Shown in pieces: positions 14,745-59,948 of a stretch of DNA of 64,000 bases; position 1 is the first letter of the stretch, and every line of letters starts with the position of its first letter. Origin of the DNA: Candidatus Peribacteria bacterium (GTDB taxonomy: Bacteria; Patescibacteriota; Gracilibacteria; Peribacterales; Peribacteraceae); assembly GCA_023245865.1 (NCBI GenBank), contig JAHFJN010000001.1:398587-462586 (forward strand), read 5' to 3'. The notes under the pieces were generated by a model, which did not search any database, was not told where the DNA came from, and worked only from the letters and a program-made list of their open reading frames with translations. Made by a program: the position numbers and the translations under genes.

Positions 14745-14940
14745 CGATGGAGGAGCCCGCCGCCACGGGGGGTGAAGGGGAAGCCCTGTGCGAATGCAAC
14801 ATGACGAAACAAGCGCCGAAGCCCTGCCTGCCGGCAGGCAGGCTTGGAGGCGCTTGTGAGGAATGACAGGGCGGGCGGAGGAGGATTGGCGGCGGAGAAT
14901 TTTTGGTTCTTTTGTTTCGTATGACAAAAGAACAAATGTA
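14745..14940 (+). repeat. dispersed intergenic repeat, copy A, ending in a 10-bp hairpin
   Basis: Contains a CCTGCC/GGCAGG palindrome (about 14823-14843) nested in inverted arms (AAGCGCCGAAGC... and its near complement) and ends GGCGGAGAATT followed by a hairpin: GTTCTTTTGT at 14906-14915 and ACAAAAGAAC at 14924-14933. The final GGCGGAG-plus-hairpin module recurs at 34161-34202 and 49479-49526 with different but still perfectly paired arms. Confidence 0.8.
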
Positions 14941-33982: not shown

Positions 33983-34202
33983 CCCCCCTCTCCCCATGTG
34001 GAGAGGGGGGAAATAATGTGCCGACTGTTCTTGAACCAAGGAGGCATGTTCCATGCTTCAGCATGTCCTTCGACTACGCTCAGGATGACACGAGGAGTAG
34101 ACGGAGGGGAACCCGCCAGTGCCGCGGGGGTGTTGCGGCCGGCGGAGTGTGGCGCCACCTGGCGGAGCGCTTTTGGTTCTTTTCTGGCCCTGAGAAAAGA
34201 AC
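33983..34202 (+). repeat. dispersed ~185-bp intergenic repeat, copy B
   Basis: A CTCTCC/GGAGAG hairpin (about 33987-34012) precedes GTGCCGACTG at 34018. From there to 34202 the sequence matches copy C at 49336-49526 almost throughout. It includes TTCTTGAACCAAGGAGGCAT, a GTCATCC-type palindrome half (34066-34091), the GCGGGGGTGTTGCGGCCGG block and GGCGGAG. It ends in a 10-bp hairpin: GTTCTTTTCT (34176-34185) and AGAAAAGAAC (34193-34202). Lies between dnaA and thrS. Confidence 0.9.
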
Positions 34203-37579: not shown

Positions 37580-37951
37580 TTATACCTCCTCTCCCCGAGG
37601 GAGAGGATTGAGGTGAGGGGTCCTAAGATATTTCACAATCACTTCGATGACCACATGAATATCTTCCTTCAATTCATGATTTTCAAAATGCAGAATGCGA
37701 TGCCCGCATTTCTTCAAAAATTGTTCTCTTTTTTGATCATAAGCAACTTGCAATGCATGGATTCCGCCATCAAGCTCGATAATGAGGTTCGCTTCTCTAC
37801 AAAAGAAATCAACGATGTAGCAACCGATGGGAACTTGTCGGCGAAATTTGTAATCGCAGAGTTGCCTGTTCTTCAATTTTTTCCAGAGCAACTTCTCCAC
37901 AGGCGTTTGCTGTTTGCGAAGAGTCCGTGCGAATACAATGTTCTCTTTCAT
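37580..37951 (-). CDS. DUF559 (Vsr-like) endonuclease
   Basis: 123 residues. The fold signature is present: TPVEKLLWKKLKNR, then YKFRRQVPIGCYIVDFFC, then LIIELDGGIH, then a C-terminal RILHF strand. These contain the Asp, Glu and Gln/Asp residues of a PD-(D/E)XK-type nuclease related to very-short-patch repair enzymes. The last 15 or so residues are encoded by a palindromic repeat that also flanks the other side of the gene in inverted orientation. This suggests the gene travels with the repeats. Confidence 0.88.
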   Translation of the reverse strand: MKENIVFARTLRKQQTPVEKLLWKKLKNRQLCDYKFRRQVPIGCYIVDFFCREANLIIELDGGIHALQVAYDQKREQFLKKCGHRILHFENHELKEDIHVVIEVIVKYLRTPHLNPLPRGEEV

Positions 37952-38006
37952 GGAAGATTCATTCTACCCCTCACCCTAACCCTCTCCCTATAGGAGAGGG
38001 GTACCA
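37586..38006. mobile_element. DUF559 nuclease cassette framed by inverted palindromic repeats
   Basis: Left frame (37588-37623): a CCTCTCCCCGAGGGAGAGG hairpin, then GAGGTGAGGGGTCC. Right frame (37970-38000): ACCCCTCACCCTAACC-like start, then a CTCTCCCTATAGGAGAGG hairpin. The frames are inverted relative to each other with hairpins outermost, and the only content is a DUF559 gene whose C-terminal LRTPHLNPLPRGEE is encoded by the left frame. A gene-free version of the same frame lies at 45834-45936. Confidence 0.8.
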
Positions 38007-45588: not shown

Positions 45589-45939
45589 AAAACTGAAGGG
45601 TAATAGGGAAGCAAAACATACTCCGACCGCTGCATTCGTTGATGGAAATCAGTCTACGGATGATGCATACGCCATTGCAAGGGCACTACGACTACCTTTC
45701 GTGTACAGAATTGCGAAACGAGTGCACAAAATATGTTCAGAACTTTTGGCTCACCTTCAAGGGAAAGACAAAAATGTATTCAGGAGAAAACGGGGCGAAT
45801 TATTAGTGTATACGGATTGTATACAGAAATTTCCTCTCCTTGAGGGAGAGGACTGAGGTGAGGGGTCCACAAAAATTTCCACAAATTGAATTTGCTCCAA
45901 CCCCTCACCCTAACCCTCTCCCGCGGGGAGAGGGAAGAA
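45589..45939. other. 351-bp gap upstream of ftsA: weak ORF and empty DUF559-type repeat frame
   Basis: 45589-45830 presumably contains the ftsA promoter. A plus-strand frame runs through it to 45856 but has no start codon clear of ftsA and no recognisable family. GTATAC words form an imperfect palindrome near 45809-45825. 45834-45936 is a palindromic repeat pair, described separately. Confidence 0.5.
45834..45936. repeat. empty version of the DUF559 cassette frame (inverted palindrome pair)
   Basis: CCTCTCCTTGAGGGAGAGG hairpin plus GAGGTGAGGGGTCC (45834-45870), then about 30 AT-rich bases, then ACCCCTCACCCTAACC and a CTCTCCCGCGGGGAGAGG hairpin (45900-45933). Same order and orientation as the frame around the DUF559 gene at 37.6-38.0 kb. 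Confidence 0.85.
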
Positions 45940-49335: not shown

Positions 49336-49526
49336 GTGCCGACTGTTCTTGAACCAAGGAGGCATGTTCCTTTTTAATGGAATATCCTTCGACTACGCTC
49401 AGGATGACACAAGAAATTGATGGAGGGGTACCGCTAGTGCCGCGGGGGTGTTGCGGCCGGTGGAGTGGGGCGCCACCTGGCGGAGAATTTCTTTGGTCCT
49501 TTCTTGTTGCCCTGACAAGAAAGGAC
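49336..49526 (+). repeat. dispersed ~185-bp intergenic repeat, copy C
   Basis: Closely matches copy B (34018-34202) throughout, including GTGCCGACTGTTCTTGAACC, a palindrome half at 49386-49410 and the GCGGGGGTGTTGCGGCCGG block. Ends in a 12-bp perfect hairpin: GTCCTTTCTTGT (49496-49507), loop TGCCCTG, ACAAGAAAGGAC (49515-49526). Arms differ from copies A and B but remain fully paired. Located 3' of murE. Confidence 0.92.
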
Positions 49527-49544: not shown

Positions 49545-49587
49545 CATAAAAAGACCGTCCCCACACATAGTGGGCGCAGGGACGGTC
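49545..49587 (-). terminator. intrinsic terminator of the tiny membrane-protein operon
   Basis: On the minus strand GACCGTCCC (from 49587) pairs with GGGACGGTC (to 49553) around an 17-base loop, followed by TTTTTATGG. Lies 16 bases after the stop of the second tiny gene. Confidence 0.8.
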
Positions 49588-50825: not shown

Positions 50826-51932
50826 CATATTCTCGCACTCGAAACCTCCTGTGATGAAACCGCGGTGGCGATTGTCGAAGATGGCACCAAGGTCCTCAGC
50901 AATGTGATCGCAAGCTCAAGCGACGCATTCAATGCCGCGGGCGGCGTGATCCCCGAGGAGGCAGCCCGCAAACAAGTGCAGTGCATTCTGCCGGTCATCC
51001 ATCAAGCCCTGAAAAAAGCAGACTGCACCTGGAAGCAGATCGATGCCCTCGCCGTCACGCGCGGACCGGGGTTACTTGGCTCGCTCCTCGTCGGCACGAC
51101 CGCCGCCCGCGCGCTCGCCTCGCTTCATCAACTCCCTCTTATAGGAGTTCACCACACGCTCGGCCACTTAAGTTCCACATGTCTTGATAGTGATCCATGC
51201 GATGGTGTCATGGTGAGCGTAGTCGAACCACAATTCCCTGTCCTGTCCCTCTCCGCCTCCGGCGGCCACACGGAACTGTGGCTGCGCACTGCGCACACCA
51301 AAGGAACGCTCCTCGGTCGCACGCGCGATGACGCAGCCGGCGAGGCGTTTGATAAAGGCGCGAGCCTGCTTGGGCTCCCCTACCCCGGCGGCCCCGCCAT
51401 CAGCAAAGCTGCAGAGAGCGGTGACCCCGACGCATTCCCCTTTCCTCTTCCTCTCAAAAACGAAGACACGCTTGATTTCAGTTTTTCGGGACTCAAGACA
51501 GCCTTGCGCTATACGATTCGGGATGCAATGCAGTGTCATCCTGAGCACAGTCGAAGGACGACACACGGTGTCCATGGTTCGACCGTGCTCACCATGACAC
51601 CGTTACCTATTGCCGACCTCGCCGCCTCCTACCAAGCCGCCCTCTGTCTGCATCTTTGTGATCGCATCAAACGAGCACTCGAGGCTCACTCGGAGATCCG
51701 TGAAATCCACATTGTCGGCGGCGTCTCAGCCAATACGTTCCTCCGTTCGCTCGTGCAGTCGATCGTGCCGGCACACATCATCCTACGTTTCCCGAAAAAA
51801 ATCTCGTACTGCACCGACAACGCCGCGATGATCGGCAGTGCCGCATATTGGATGGCGCAAGAACTCCGCGAGGAAGCGTATGCATCGTTTGAGACAATGG
51901 CATCACTACCCTTGGCAGCCGCATTGTCATAG
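50823..51932 (+). CDS. tsaD: tRNA N6-adenosine threonylcarbamoyltransferase
   Basis: 369 residues, about 30 longer than usual. Makes the t6A37 modification of tRNAs reading ANN codons. MHILALETSCDETAVA, the metal motif HHTLGH, SASGGHTEL, DDAAGEAFDKGA and GGVSANTFLR are in place. Extra residues come from palindromic repeats: VSVVEPQF after the metal motif and a 22-residue piece (CHPEHSRR ... STVLTM) encoded by an inverted repeat pair. Both keep frame and lie outside the active-site motifs. Confidence 0.95.
   Translation: MHILALETSCDETAVAIVEDGTKVLSNVIASSSDAFNAAGGVIPEEAARKQVQCILPVIHQALKKADCTWKQIDALAVTRGPGLLGSLLVGTTAARALASLHQLPLIGVHHTLGHLSSTCLDSDPCDGVMVSVVEPQFPVLSLSASGGHTELWLRTAHTKGTLLGRTRDDAAGEAFDKGASLLGLPYPGGPAISKAAESGDPDAFPFPLPLKNEDTLDFSFSGLKTALRYTIRDAMQCHPEHSRRTTHGVHGSTVLTMTPLPIADLAASYQAALCLHLCDRIKRALEAHSEIREIHIVGGVSANTFLRSLVQSIVPAHIILRFPKKISYCTDNAAMIGSAAYWMAQELREEAYASFETMASLPLAAALS
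51207..51598 (+). repeat. one single and one paired palindromic repeat inside tsaD
   Basis: Single copy at 51207-51230 (GTCATGGTGAGCGTAGTCGA plus ACCA). Inverted pair at 51535-51558 (GTCATCCTGAGCACAGTCGA plus AGGA) and 51576-51598 (its near complement), separated by 17 bases, able to form a long hairpin. Confidence 0.92.
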
Positions 51933-58976: not shown

Positions 58977-59948
58977 TTAGCTCGATGCAAGTGTCTGCAC
59001 GTACTGAAACACACTATTCGCCGCGACCGTGGCCTCCCCTGCCGCGGTTGTAAATTGGGCAAAGTGATTGCTCGCACTCGTGACATCTCCGGCGCCGTAC
59101 ACTCCCGGAACGCTCGTTTGCATCGTATTGTCGACCTTGAGGAAGCCACGATCATCGAGCGCACAACCAAGTTGCAGAGGAAGACGTACCTCTGGATCGG
59201 ACCCTATTTCGATGAAGACGCCATCGACCGTGAGGGTATCGCTCCCCTGAAACGGAGTATCGAGCTTGATGCCTGTTACCTTGCTTGTTCCAAGAACCTC
59301 CACCGTTTGATGTCCGAGTACGAAGGTCACATTTTCCTTCGCTTTCACGCGGTCGACCCAGTAGGGCTCCGCCCGAAACTGATCGCGCCGATGGACAAGG
59401 TACACCTTCCGCGCGACCTGCGCCGCGATCGCGGCGCCCTCGACCGCACTGTCCCCTCCACCGATCACCGCGACATCTTTGCCGCGGTAGAAAAACGCAT
59501 CGCATGTCGCGCAGTACGTCACCCCTTTACCCGAAAATTCCTCCTCTCCCGGGATCCCGAGATGTCGCTTGCTACTGCCCGTCGCGATGATGATTGTCTT
59601 TGCTTCGTACGTTTCCCCGCCCTCGAGCGTGAGTTGAAAACCCCTTGCTTCCCCCGTGTCATTCCGAGCATTCATTTGTGTGTCATTCCGAGCGTAGTCG
59701 AGGAACGACACCCGATCAATCTTGTACGTCACCGTATCACCAAAGCTGAGTGCATGCTTCTTGAACTTCTCCATCAAATCAGGGCCTTTGATTTCGATCT
59801 CTCCCGGCCAATTACCCACCTCCGCCGCGGTGTTGCCCATCCCCCCCTCCTCGAGTCCAACGAGCAGCGTGCTCAATTTATACCGCGCCGTATACACAGC
59901 AGCGGTGTACCCCGCACATCCAAGCCCAATAATTGCAACATCGAACAT
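58977..59948 (-). CDS. trxB: thioredoxin reductase
   Basis: 323 residues. FAD motif GLGCAGYTAA (with Cys where Pro is usual in GxGPAG), redox pair C146-A-T-C149 in YCATCDAFF, NADPH motif IGGGDSAVEGA and the late GAGDV. It passes electrons from NADPH to thioredoxin. About ten residues extra relative to E. coli TrxB before the redox pair are encoded by palindromic repeat DNA (DYARNDTQMNARNDTGEA), which contains a tandem ARNDT. The start follows GGAGGC. Confidence 0.95.
   Translation of the reverse strand: MFDVAIIGLGCAGYTAAVYTARYKLSTLLVGLEEGGMGNTAAEVGNWPGEIEIKGPDLMEKFKKHALSFGDTVTYKIDRVSFLDYARNDTQMNARNDTGEARGFQLTLEGGETYEAKTIIIATGSSKRHLGIPGEEEFSGKGVTYCATCDAFFYRGKDVAVIGGGDSAVEGAAIAAQVARKVYLVHRRDQFRAEPYWVDRVKAKENVTFVLGHQTVEVLGTSKVTGIKLDTPFQGSDTLTVDGVFIEIGSDPEVRLPLQLGCALDDRGFLKVDNTMQTSVPGVYGAGDVTSASNHFAQFTTAAGEATVAANSVFQYVQTLASS
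59656..59712 (-). repeat. palindromic repeat with partial tandem duplication inside trxB
   Basis: GTGTCATTCCGAGCATTC, then GTGTGTCATTCCGAGCGTAG, then TCGAGGAACGACAC. The GTCATTCCGAGC half occurs twice 29 bases apart, translated as ARNDT twice. Confidence 0.9.

Follow-up and report, generated by a model that had tools for sequence, protein, structure and literature searches.

Peribacteria are small groundwater bacteria, and in the nearly complete 1.1 Mb genome of one Peribacteraceae species three dispersed repeats (copies A, B and C) end in hairpins whose arms differ between copies and yet pair perfectly. What are these hairpins the end of, and why has their pairing been kept? The window analysed here is a stretch of 64,000 nucleotides, bases 398587-462586 of a 1.07 Mb contig. 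The original prediction placed each hairpin behind the motif GGCGGAG, and took the matched changes in its arms as a sign of a functional hairpin, be it a mobile-element terminus, a protein site or an RNA. On re-reading, the hairpin positions and the perfect pairing proved exact, and GGCGGAG precedes the hairpin in all three copies. That observation was confirmed to be understated as well as correct: the hairpin (P5) belongs to a set of five covarying helices, covariation extends to its loop and to the T-tract preceding it, and the copies represent two size classes of one element, A being long and B and C short (Table 1).

Table 1. Location of the three element copies and their parts in the window.
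Feature	Position	Strand	Remarks
Copy A, whole long-type element (contig 413333-413519)	14747..14933	+	matched by the covariance model at 150 bits, E 3.5e-36
Copy A, P1 5' strand CCGCCGCCA, partner 14887-14895	14757..14765	+	covariation in relatives, double changes in 9/9 pairs
Copy A, P1 3' strand TGGCGGCGG	14887..14895	+	covariation in relatives
Copy A, P2 5' strand GCCCTGT, partner 14866-14872	14783..14789	+	covariation
Copy A, P3 5' strand ACAAGCGCC, partner 14849-14857	14809..14817	+	covariation
Copy A, palindrome CTGCCTGCCGGCAGGCAGG inserted into P3 loop	14824..14842	+	recurs in one further copy, at contig 652780
Copy A, box1, pyrimidine tract TTTTT, proposed third strand	14900..14904	+	
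Copy A, terminal hairpin P5, arms 14906-14915 / 14924-14933	14906..14933	+	
Copy B, leader, common to all four short-type copies; includes CGACTACGCTCAGGATGACA repeat	34019..34103	+	
Copy B, short-type element; P1 = 34113-34119 with 34159-34165	34104..34202	+	
Copy B, box1 TTTT	34171..34174	+	
Copy B, terminal hairpin P5, arms 34176-34185 / 34193-34202	34176..34202	+	
Copy C, short-type element; P1 = 49431-49437 with 49477-49483	49420..49526	+	58 bits, E 1.8e-12
Copy C, box1 TTTCTTT	49488..49494	+	
Copy C, terminal hairpin P5, arms 49496-49507 / 49515-49526	49496..49526	+	

Reading of the chromosome contig yielded 20 copies in the source genome, sixteen of the long type (approximately 165-195 nt) and four of the short type (approximately 100 nt plus an 85-nt leader). 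The element as a whole ranges from 100 to 190 nt in length and has no ORF of its own. P1 encloses either P2, P3 and a small P4 (long type, where these helices lie 5' of P5) or a short core (short type), and the terminal module follows. Further copies do not show the mostly unpaired arms that would speak against a functional hairpin: nine distinct P5 5' arms occur (among them GTTCTTTTGT, GTTCTTTTCT, GTCCTTTCTTGT, GTTCTTTCTTGT, AGTACTTTCTTGT and CCACTTTCTTTT), and 226 of the 227 terminal pairs are Watson-Crick, the single exception being T.G. The inner helices of the long type vary in the same manner, with P1 found as CCGCCGCC/GGCGGCGG, CCATCGCC/GGCGATGG, CCGTCCAGTG/CACTGGACGG and GGCCGTG/CACGGCC, and P3 as ACGAACTGC/GCAGTTCGT, GCAGACGTC/GACGTCTGC and ACAAGCGCC/GGCGCTTGT. 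Among the 11 copies with long arms, 50 cells are changed on both sides, compared with 18.3 +/- 3.8 after shuffling (0 of 500 shuffles reach the observed number) and 0-12 in slid controls; the anticipated excess of paired substitutions is thus present. A reversed hairpin pattern, used as a control, gave 0 matches in 379 genomes.

Fold is conserved more than sequence, and a functional hairpin with pairing under selection is supported. Of the three functions originally proposed, a sequence-specific protein site is made unlikely by arms that vary freely in sequence while remaining paired; a mobile-element terminus is best supported, and an RNA is its main rival. The palindrome in the P3 loop of copy A recurs in one other copy (contig 652596-652787), where the flanking P3 arms belong to two different P3 versions and are unpaired.

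DNA identity searches of relatives matched nothing beyond the source genome, so that a covariance model was needed. The model was built from the source-genome copies and searched in the genomes of the family and in genomes of the same class outside it. The original prediction had proposed such a scan, and the structure recurs: 40 of 57 family genomes contain the element and 17 lack it, at 0-39 copies per genome, and within a single genus the copy number is 1, 17 and 20. None of approximately 100 same-class genomes outside the family gave a match to the model. In a 257-billion-base genome collection the core motif was found in 71 stretches, all of them on contigs of Candidatus Peribacteria, Peribacteraceae or Peregrinibacteria; similar ends also occur in contigs unrelated to this group. 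When 61 copies of other genomes were aligned, 95.7% of the cells proved to be paired, double changes occur in 39 of 41 pairs, and 686 cells are double-changed against 222 in shuffled and at most 102 in slid alignments. Fitting this alignment to the model favours structure, and the slid controls and the model-free alignment from the source genome agree with the result. Copies are closest to their neighbours in the same genome and not to those of another genus (0.89 within G012, 0.76 from G012 to G405). No Rfam family matched above its gathering score, and plasmid or phage spread found no match in the collections tested, either for the element body or for modules from other lineages. An incomplete literature search returned no earlier description of the arm sequences, of Peribacteria repeats, or of triple-helix pseudoknots in bacterial repeats.

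The low GC content of the hairpins had been taken to make a plain terminator less likely, and this judgement held. An intrinsic terminator has a GC-rich stem followed by a U-run, and the element has no such structure: no U-run lies behind P5 on either strand in copies A, B and C, and none of the three received a terminator call. The elements do sit behind genes, and 24 of 78 lie in a convergent context, as might be expected of bidirectional intrinsic terminators; copy C, however, has a separate true terminator approximately 26 bases away (window 49553-49587, minus strand), a strong one with a 14-bp stem and T-run that is independent of the element. We regard termination as the function of these elements as extremely improbable.

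The novel part of the finding is the terminal module, which consists of 5'-X, a pyrimidine tract (box1), the P5 5' arm, a loop containing X', and a purine-rich 3' arm. Box1 varies along with the 5' arm (TTTT with CTTTT, TTTCTTT with CTTTCTT), and when asymmetric it is a mirror rather than a direct copy of the arm (CTCTCTTT with TTTCTCTC, CTTTCTTC with CTTCTTTC, CTTTTCTTT with TTTCTTTTC). Simple counting in the Peribacteria set gives a mixed picture, with 17 mirror-longer and 14 direct-longer cases; the direct-longer cases reflect a single edge base, and differences of two or more bases are all mirror (7 types against 0 direct). An independent test was provided by a scan of 2.9 million viral contigs. 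Here, TTCTCTTT/TTTCTCTT gave 10 mirror and 0 direct matches and CTTTTCTTT/TTTCTTTT gave 23 and 5, while distinct, well-formed asymmetric modules with a paired foot, a filter chosen after the matches were known, numbered 11 mirror and 0 direct. The mirror test ruled out box1 as a direct repeat capable of an alternative duplex. Copy A has only T in its tract, and the mirror relation is drawn from the relatives and the viral contigs, not from this tract.

X, in turn, is complementary to the loop (GTCGCC/GGCGAC, GGGCCGCC/GGCGGCCC, CCACCG/CGGTGG, CTTGAT/ATCAAG, and CCGGCG/CGCCGG adjoining CCGGTG/CACCGG). The longest complementary run averages 3.54 in Peribacteria (3.10 +/- 0.08 when permuted) and 3.44 in viral contigs and other genomes (2.81 +/- 0.07), a value reached by 0 of 5,000 permutations in either case, although these p-values are optimistic because related copies are not independent. 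Nine of the 11 asymmetric modules show the complementarity. In the window copies it extends over 3-4 nt only; for this reason, and because the tract of copy A is uniform, the window alone would not reveal the relations within the module.

Since box1 mirrors the pyrimidine 5' arm, it can run alongside the purine arm in parallel orientation and serve as a Hoogsteen third strand. This mirror-repeat arrangement is the one expected of a triple-helix pseudoknot, and X, box1, arm, X' and arm follow one another as they would in an H-type pseudoknot containing a pyrimidine.purine-pyrimidine triple helix. Going by the sequence relations, such a triple helix may form, in DNA or in RNA. The loop leaves 0-3 nt after X', which is tight for a complete pseudoknot, and two alternating hairpins are a possible alternative. 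Telomerase RNA has an H-type pseudoknot whose loop 1 contains a triple helix, and the order there is stem 1 strand, U-rich third strand, stem 2, stem 1 strand and purine strand; the strand order of the element module is the same. Triple helices of the ENE type are found in MALAT1 (PMC11411715) and at the 3' end of the RNA of the Arabidopsis mobile element Evade (PMC12501189). The present module differs from all of these in belonging to bacterial interspersed repeats, in carrying C in the third strand, and in that its triplex is predicted and DNA is favoured for the other helices.

These likenesses raise the possibility that the element acts as a structured RNA, i.e. a sense-transcribed 3' UTR or small RNA whose terminal triple-helix pseudoknot would block 3' exonucleases, as in MALAT1 and some plant retrotransposon RNAs. 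The part order is that of triple-helix pseudoknots, and the 1-nt link across the 4-5-bp foot fits A-form RNA better than DNA. In 13 of the 20 source-genome copies the gene on the 5' side is co-directional, often ending 4-9 nt upstream, and ENE triple helices are described as protecting plant retrotransposon RNA (PMC12501189). Base pairing in the element argues in the other direction. Among 2,355 cells (outermost P5 pair excluded) there are 31 G-U (1.3%) and 18 A-C, compared with 45 G-U and 0 A-C in the 1,008 pairs of the 46 source-genome tRNAs (Fisher p ~2e-7 for G-U against the element), an imperfect control in that ARAGORN's own rules shape the tRNA pairs. The sense strand is more stable as RNA in absolute energy in 61 of 61 copies; measured against shuffled sequence, however, antisense folding is as good or better (z -4.6 versus -3.4 for sense). 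The rarity of G-U and the folding of the antisense strand indicate that the helices are not shaped like usual RNA helices, and with G-U pairs scarcely commoner than A-C the data do not favour a plain RNA. The lack of an Rfam match and a direction fixed relative to replication rather than to neighbouring genes (38 of 78 elements) also count against an RNA, and we consider this explanation unlikely, if still one to be taken seriously. Strong covariation with almost no G-U offers a way of separating DNA-level from RNA-level structure.

The helices behave like DNA hairpins, or like arms that are kept equal by template switching. In the latter case, quasipalindrome correction during replication would equalise the arms, each paired change would be one mutational event, and no function of the hairpin would be implied. 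Template switching creates and maintains hairpins in other genomes, as two reports describe (PMC8794818; PMC8604942), and it agrees with the near absence of G-U and one-sided intermediates and with the source-genome loops TGCCCA and TGGGCA, which resemble a loop inversion. It may account for the matched arms of the simple helices. It cannot yield a mirror tract outside the hairpin or the complementarity of X and loop; the P1 arms are separated by over 100 nt and by three intervening helices, and the copy at contig 652780 with the P3 palindrome has kept its unmatched P3 arms. As an explanation of the whole element, template switching seems quite improbable. Returning to a selected fold, the folded form would be what is recognised and would exist mainly as single-stranded or extruded DNA, given that G-U pairs are not favoured.

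Element orientation follows replication. When origin and terminus are placed by GC skew, 18 of 18 copies in G405 agree with replication polarity (skew and copies exclude C1:900001-920000, L269, which reads as N), as do 14 of 15 in G198, where the skew is noisy, and approximately 15 of 20 in the source genome (14-16 according to where precisely the origin lies, p 0.01-0.12). Genes were called with a simple dicodon model, without annotation. Those adjoining the elements point in both directions, so that gene direction is not the cause of the polarity; it was rejected as the source for G405. Divergent gene pairs surround 11 of 78 elements, compared with 28% of intergenic gaps in the source genome. 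Strong polarity in G405 and G198, together with chromosome-wide dispersal, might suggest a non-mobile chromosomal signal read in replication or repair, like KOPS or primosome sites. Such a signal is hard to reconcile with an element that fluctuates as strongly within one genus and across related species as the copy numbers above show, that is missing from 17 family genomes, and whose polarity in the source genome is only partial; we hold this reading to be very improbable.

The data favour instead the end of a proliferating element, on the basis of copy number varying from 1 to 20 within a genus, replication polarity, and a copy within a gene. This last copy (contig 713920-714088) continues the reading frame of a 727-aa acyl-CoA synthetase and forms the linker between the ligase and ATP-grasp domains, which in relatives is shorter and variable. 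The gene (G000:C3:712556-714736, L407) encodes an ADP-forming enzyme, and the element copy is translated as its interdomain linker; in a relative (L408), a different repeat-like peptide occupies the same linker. Rickettsia palindromic elements (RPE) are likewise palindromic repeats able to sit in frame in protein genes. The Peribacteraceae element resembles them in this respect and differs in having one in-gene copy only and an unrelated sequence and fold. RPE-4 and RPE-6 have been equated with CGTC REPs (PMC3733652).

REP, BIME and REPIN sequences of the GTAG and CGTC superfamilies are 20-40 bp long with a GTAG or CGTC tag and one stem (PMC3733652, PMC3116915). The present element shares with them dispersed palindromic repeats, mostly intergenic position, dimers of opposite orientation and occasional location in genes and, with the CGTC type, the lack of a dedicated transposase (PMC3733652, PMC3116915). 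Its dimers are head-to-head pairs with P5 outward, 12-57 nt apart, as at L240 (1266-1444 / 1501-1677) and source contig 932619-932992. In contrast to REPs it is 100-190 nt long, with five helices, a mirror tract, loop complementarity and no Y1 gene, and in source-genome copies a TTTTG or TTTCTTTG tract rather than an unpaired GTAG/CGTC tag precedes the hairpin foot. Movement as a REP by a RAYT (Y1 HUH) transposase would agree with a conserved tag at the hairpin foot, dimers, intergenic position and replication polarity, and Y1 genes are present in 38 of 57 family genomes. No Y1 transposase gene was found, however, in the element-rich genomes G000 (the source genome), G012, G018, G022, G198, G399, G405 and G418, and a GTAG or CGTC tag is lacking; movement by RAYT is accordingly highly improbable.

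A further parallel is provided by IS200/IS605, whose subterminal hairpins are recognised as single-stranded DNA, with base triples taking part in recognition, and whose insertion is biased to the lagging-strand template (PMC6006769). The orientation of the element is biased by replication polarity in a similar manner; its element-rich genomes, in contrast, are without Y1 or TnpB, and the box1 and X relations are unlike the tetranucleotide guide. TnpB/omega-RNA was rejected as a mover, there being no TnpB above the cut-off, as was copying by reverse transcriptase, none being found in G405, G018, G198, G022 and G399. Being short, non-autonomous and dispersed, with 20 copies, no ORF and variable copy number, the element also resembles MITEs. 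MITEs further have terminal inverted repeats that match a transposase, and a target duplication; here single copies carry P5 at one end only and head-to-head pairs at both, and no target duplication was recognised. Sister species gave no clean empty site; in the best case, L365 and L394 (with the element) compared with L389 (without), unrelated sequence takes its place. As neither a mover nor a clean empty site was found, the case for mobility is made by the variation in copy number, the dispersed context and the copy within a gene. In sister species many copies occupy the same locus, so that an element already in place is also stably retained.

Taken together, hairpins A, B and C may be the 3' ends of a non-autonomous, proliferating, REP/MITE-like interspersed element of the Peribacteraceae that is selected for folding and spread at replication forks, a reading in which our confidence is about evenly divided. 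Copies would spread via single-stranded DNA at the fork, moved in trans by an enzyme, in a manner perhaps comparable to REP and IS200/IS605-derived elements. The terminal module might be the end read by this enzyme or by a host factor, and copies would be tolerated just behind stop codons and, once, in an interdomain linker. More tentatively, and with somewhat less than even confidence, we suggest that interspersed repeats of several bacterial lineages, although otherwise unrelated, have in common a triple-helix pseudoknot at their 3' edge, and that an enzyme or host factor uses this device in copying or protecting them at replication forks. These repeats would make up a third, structurally defined REP-like superfamily with a telomerase-like fold. 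The rule of mirror tract plus loop complement is testable and unites a family whose members look like unrelated hairpins when searched by sequence; the hosts have very small genomes, and no mover is known in them. Should the triplex fold prove real, a triple-helix pseudoknot would stand at the end of bacterial mobile DNA, and replication polarity would make the mechanism of spread directly testable.

In many of the viral contigs (L062-L138), short inverted-repeat units (CAAAAGTTTTTTGG...) are bounded on either side by TTTTGGTTCTTTT hairpins; these look like another family with the same terminal hairpin. The window contains other repeats as well. The separate high-copy repeat CGACTACGCTCAGGATGACA occurs at 34071-34090, 49390-49409, 51206-51225, 51534-51553 and 59681-59700, has approximately 35 further partial matches in the source genome, and also makes up part of the short-type leader. 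A dispersed repeat pair rich in CCTCTCCC and GAGGGAGAGG is found at 37587-37634 / 45832-45879 and 37966-38000 / 45900-45934, and bases 1-100 and 406-505 form a 100-base duplication of 98% identity within a very long ORF.
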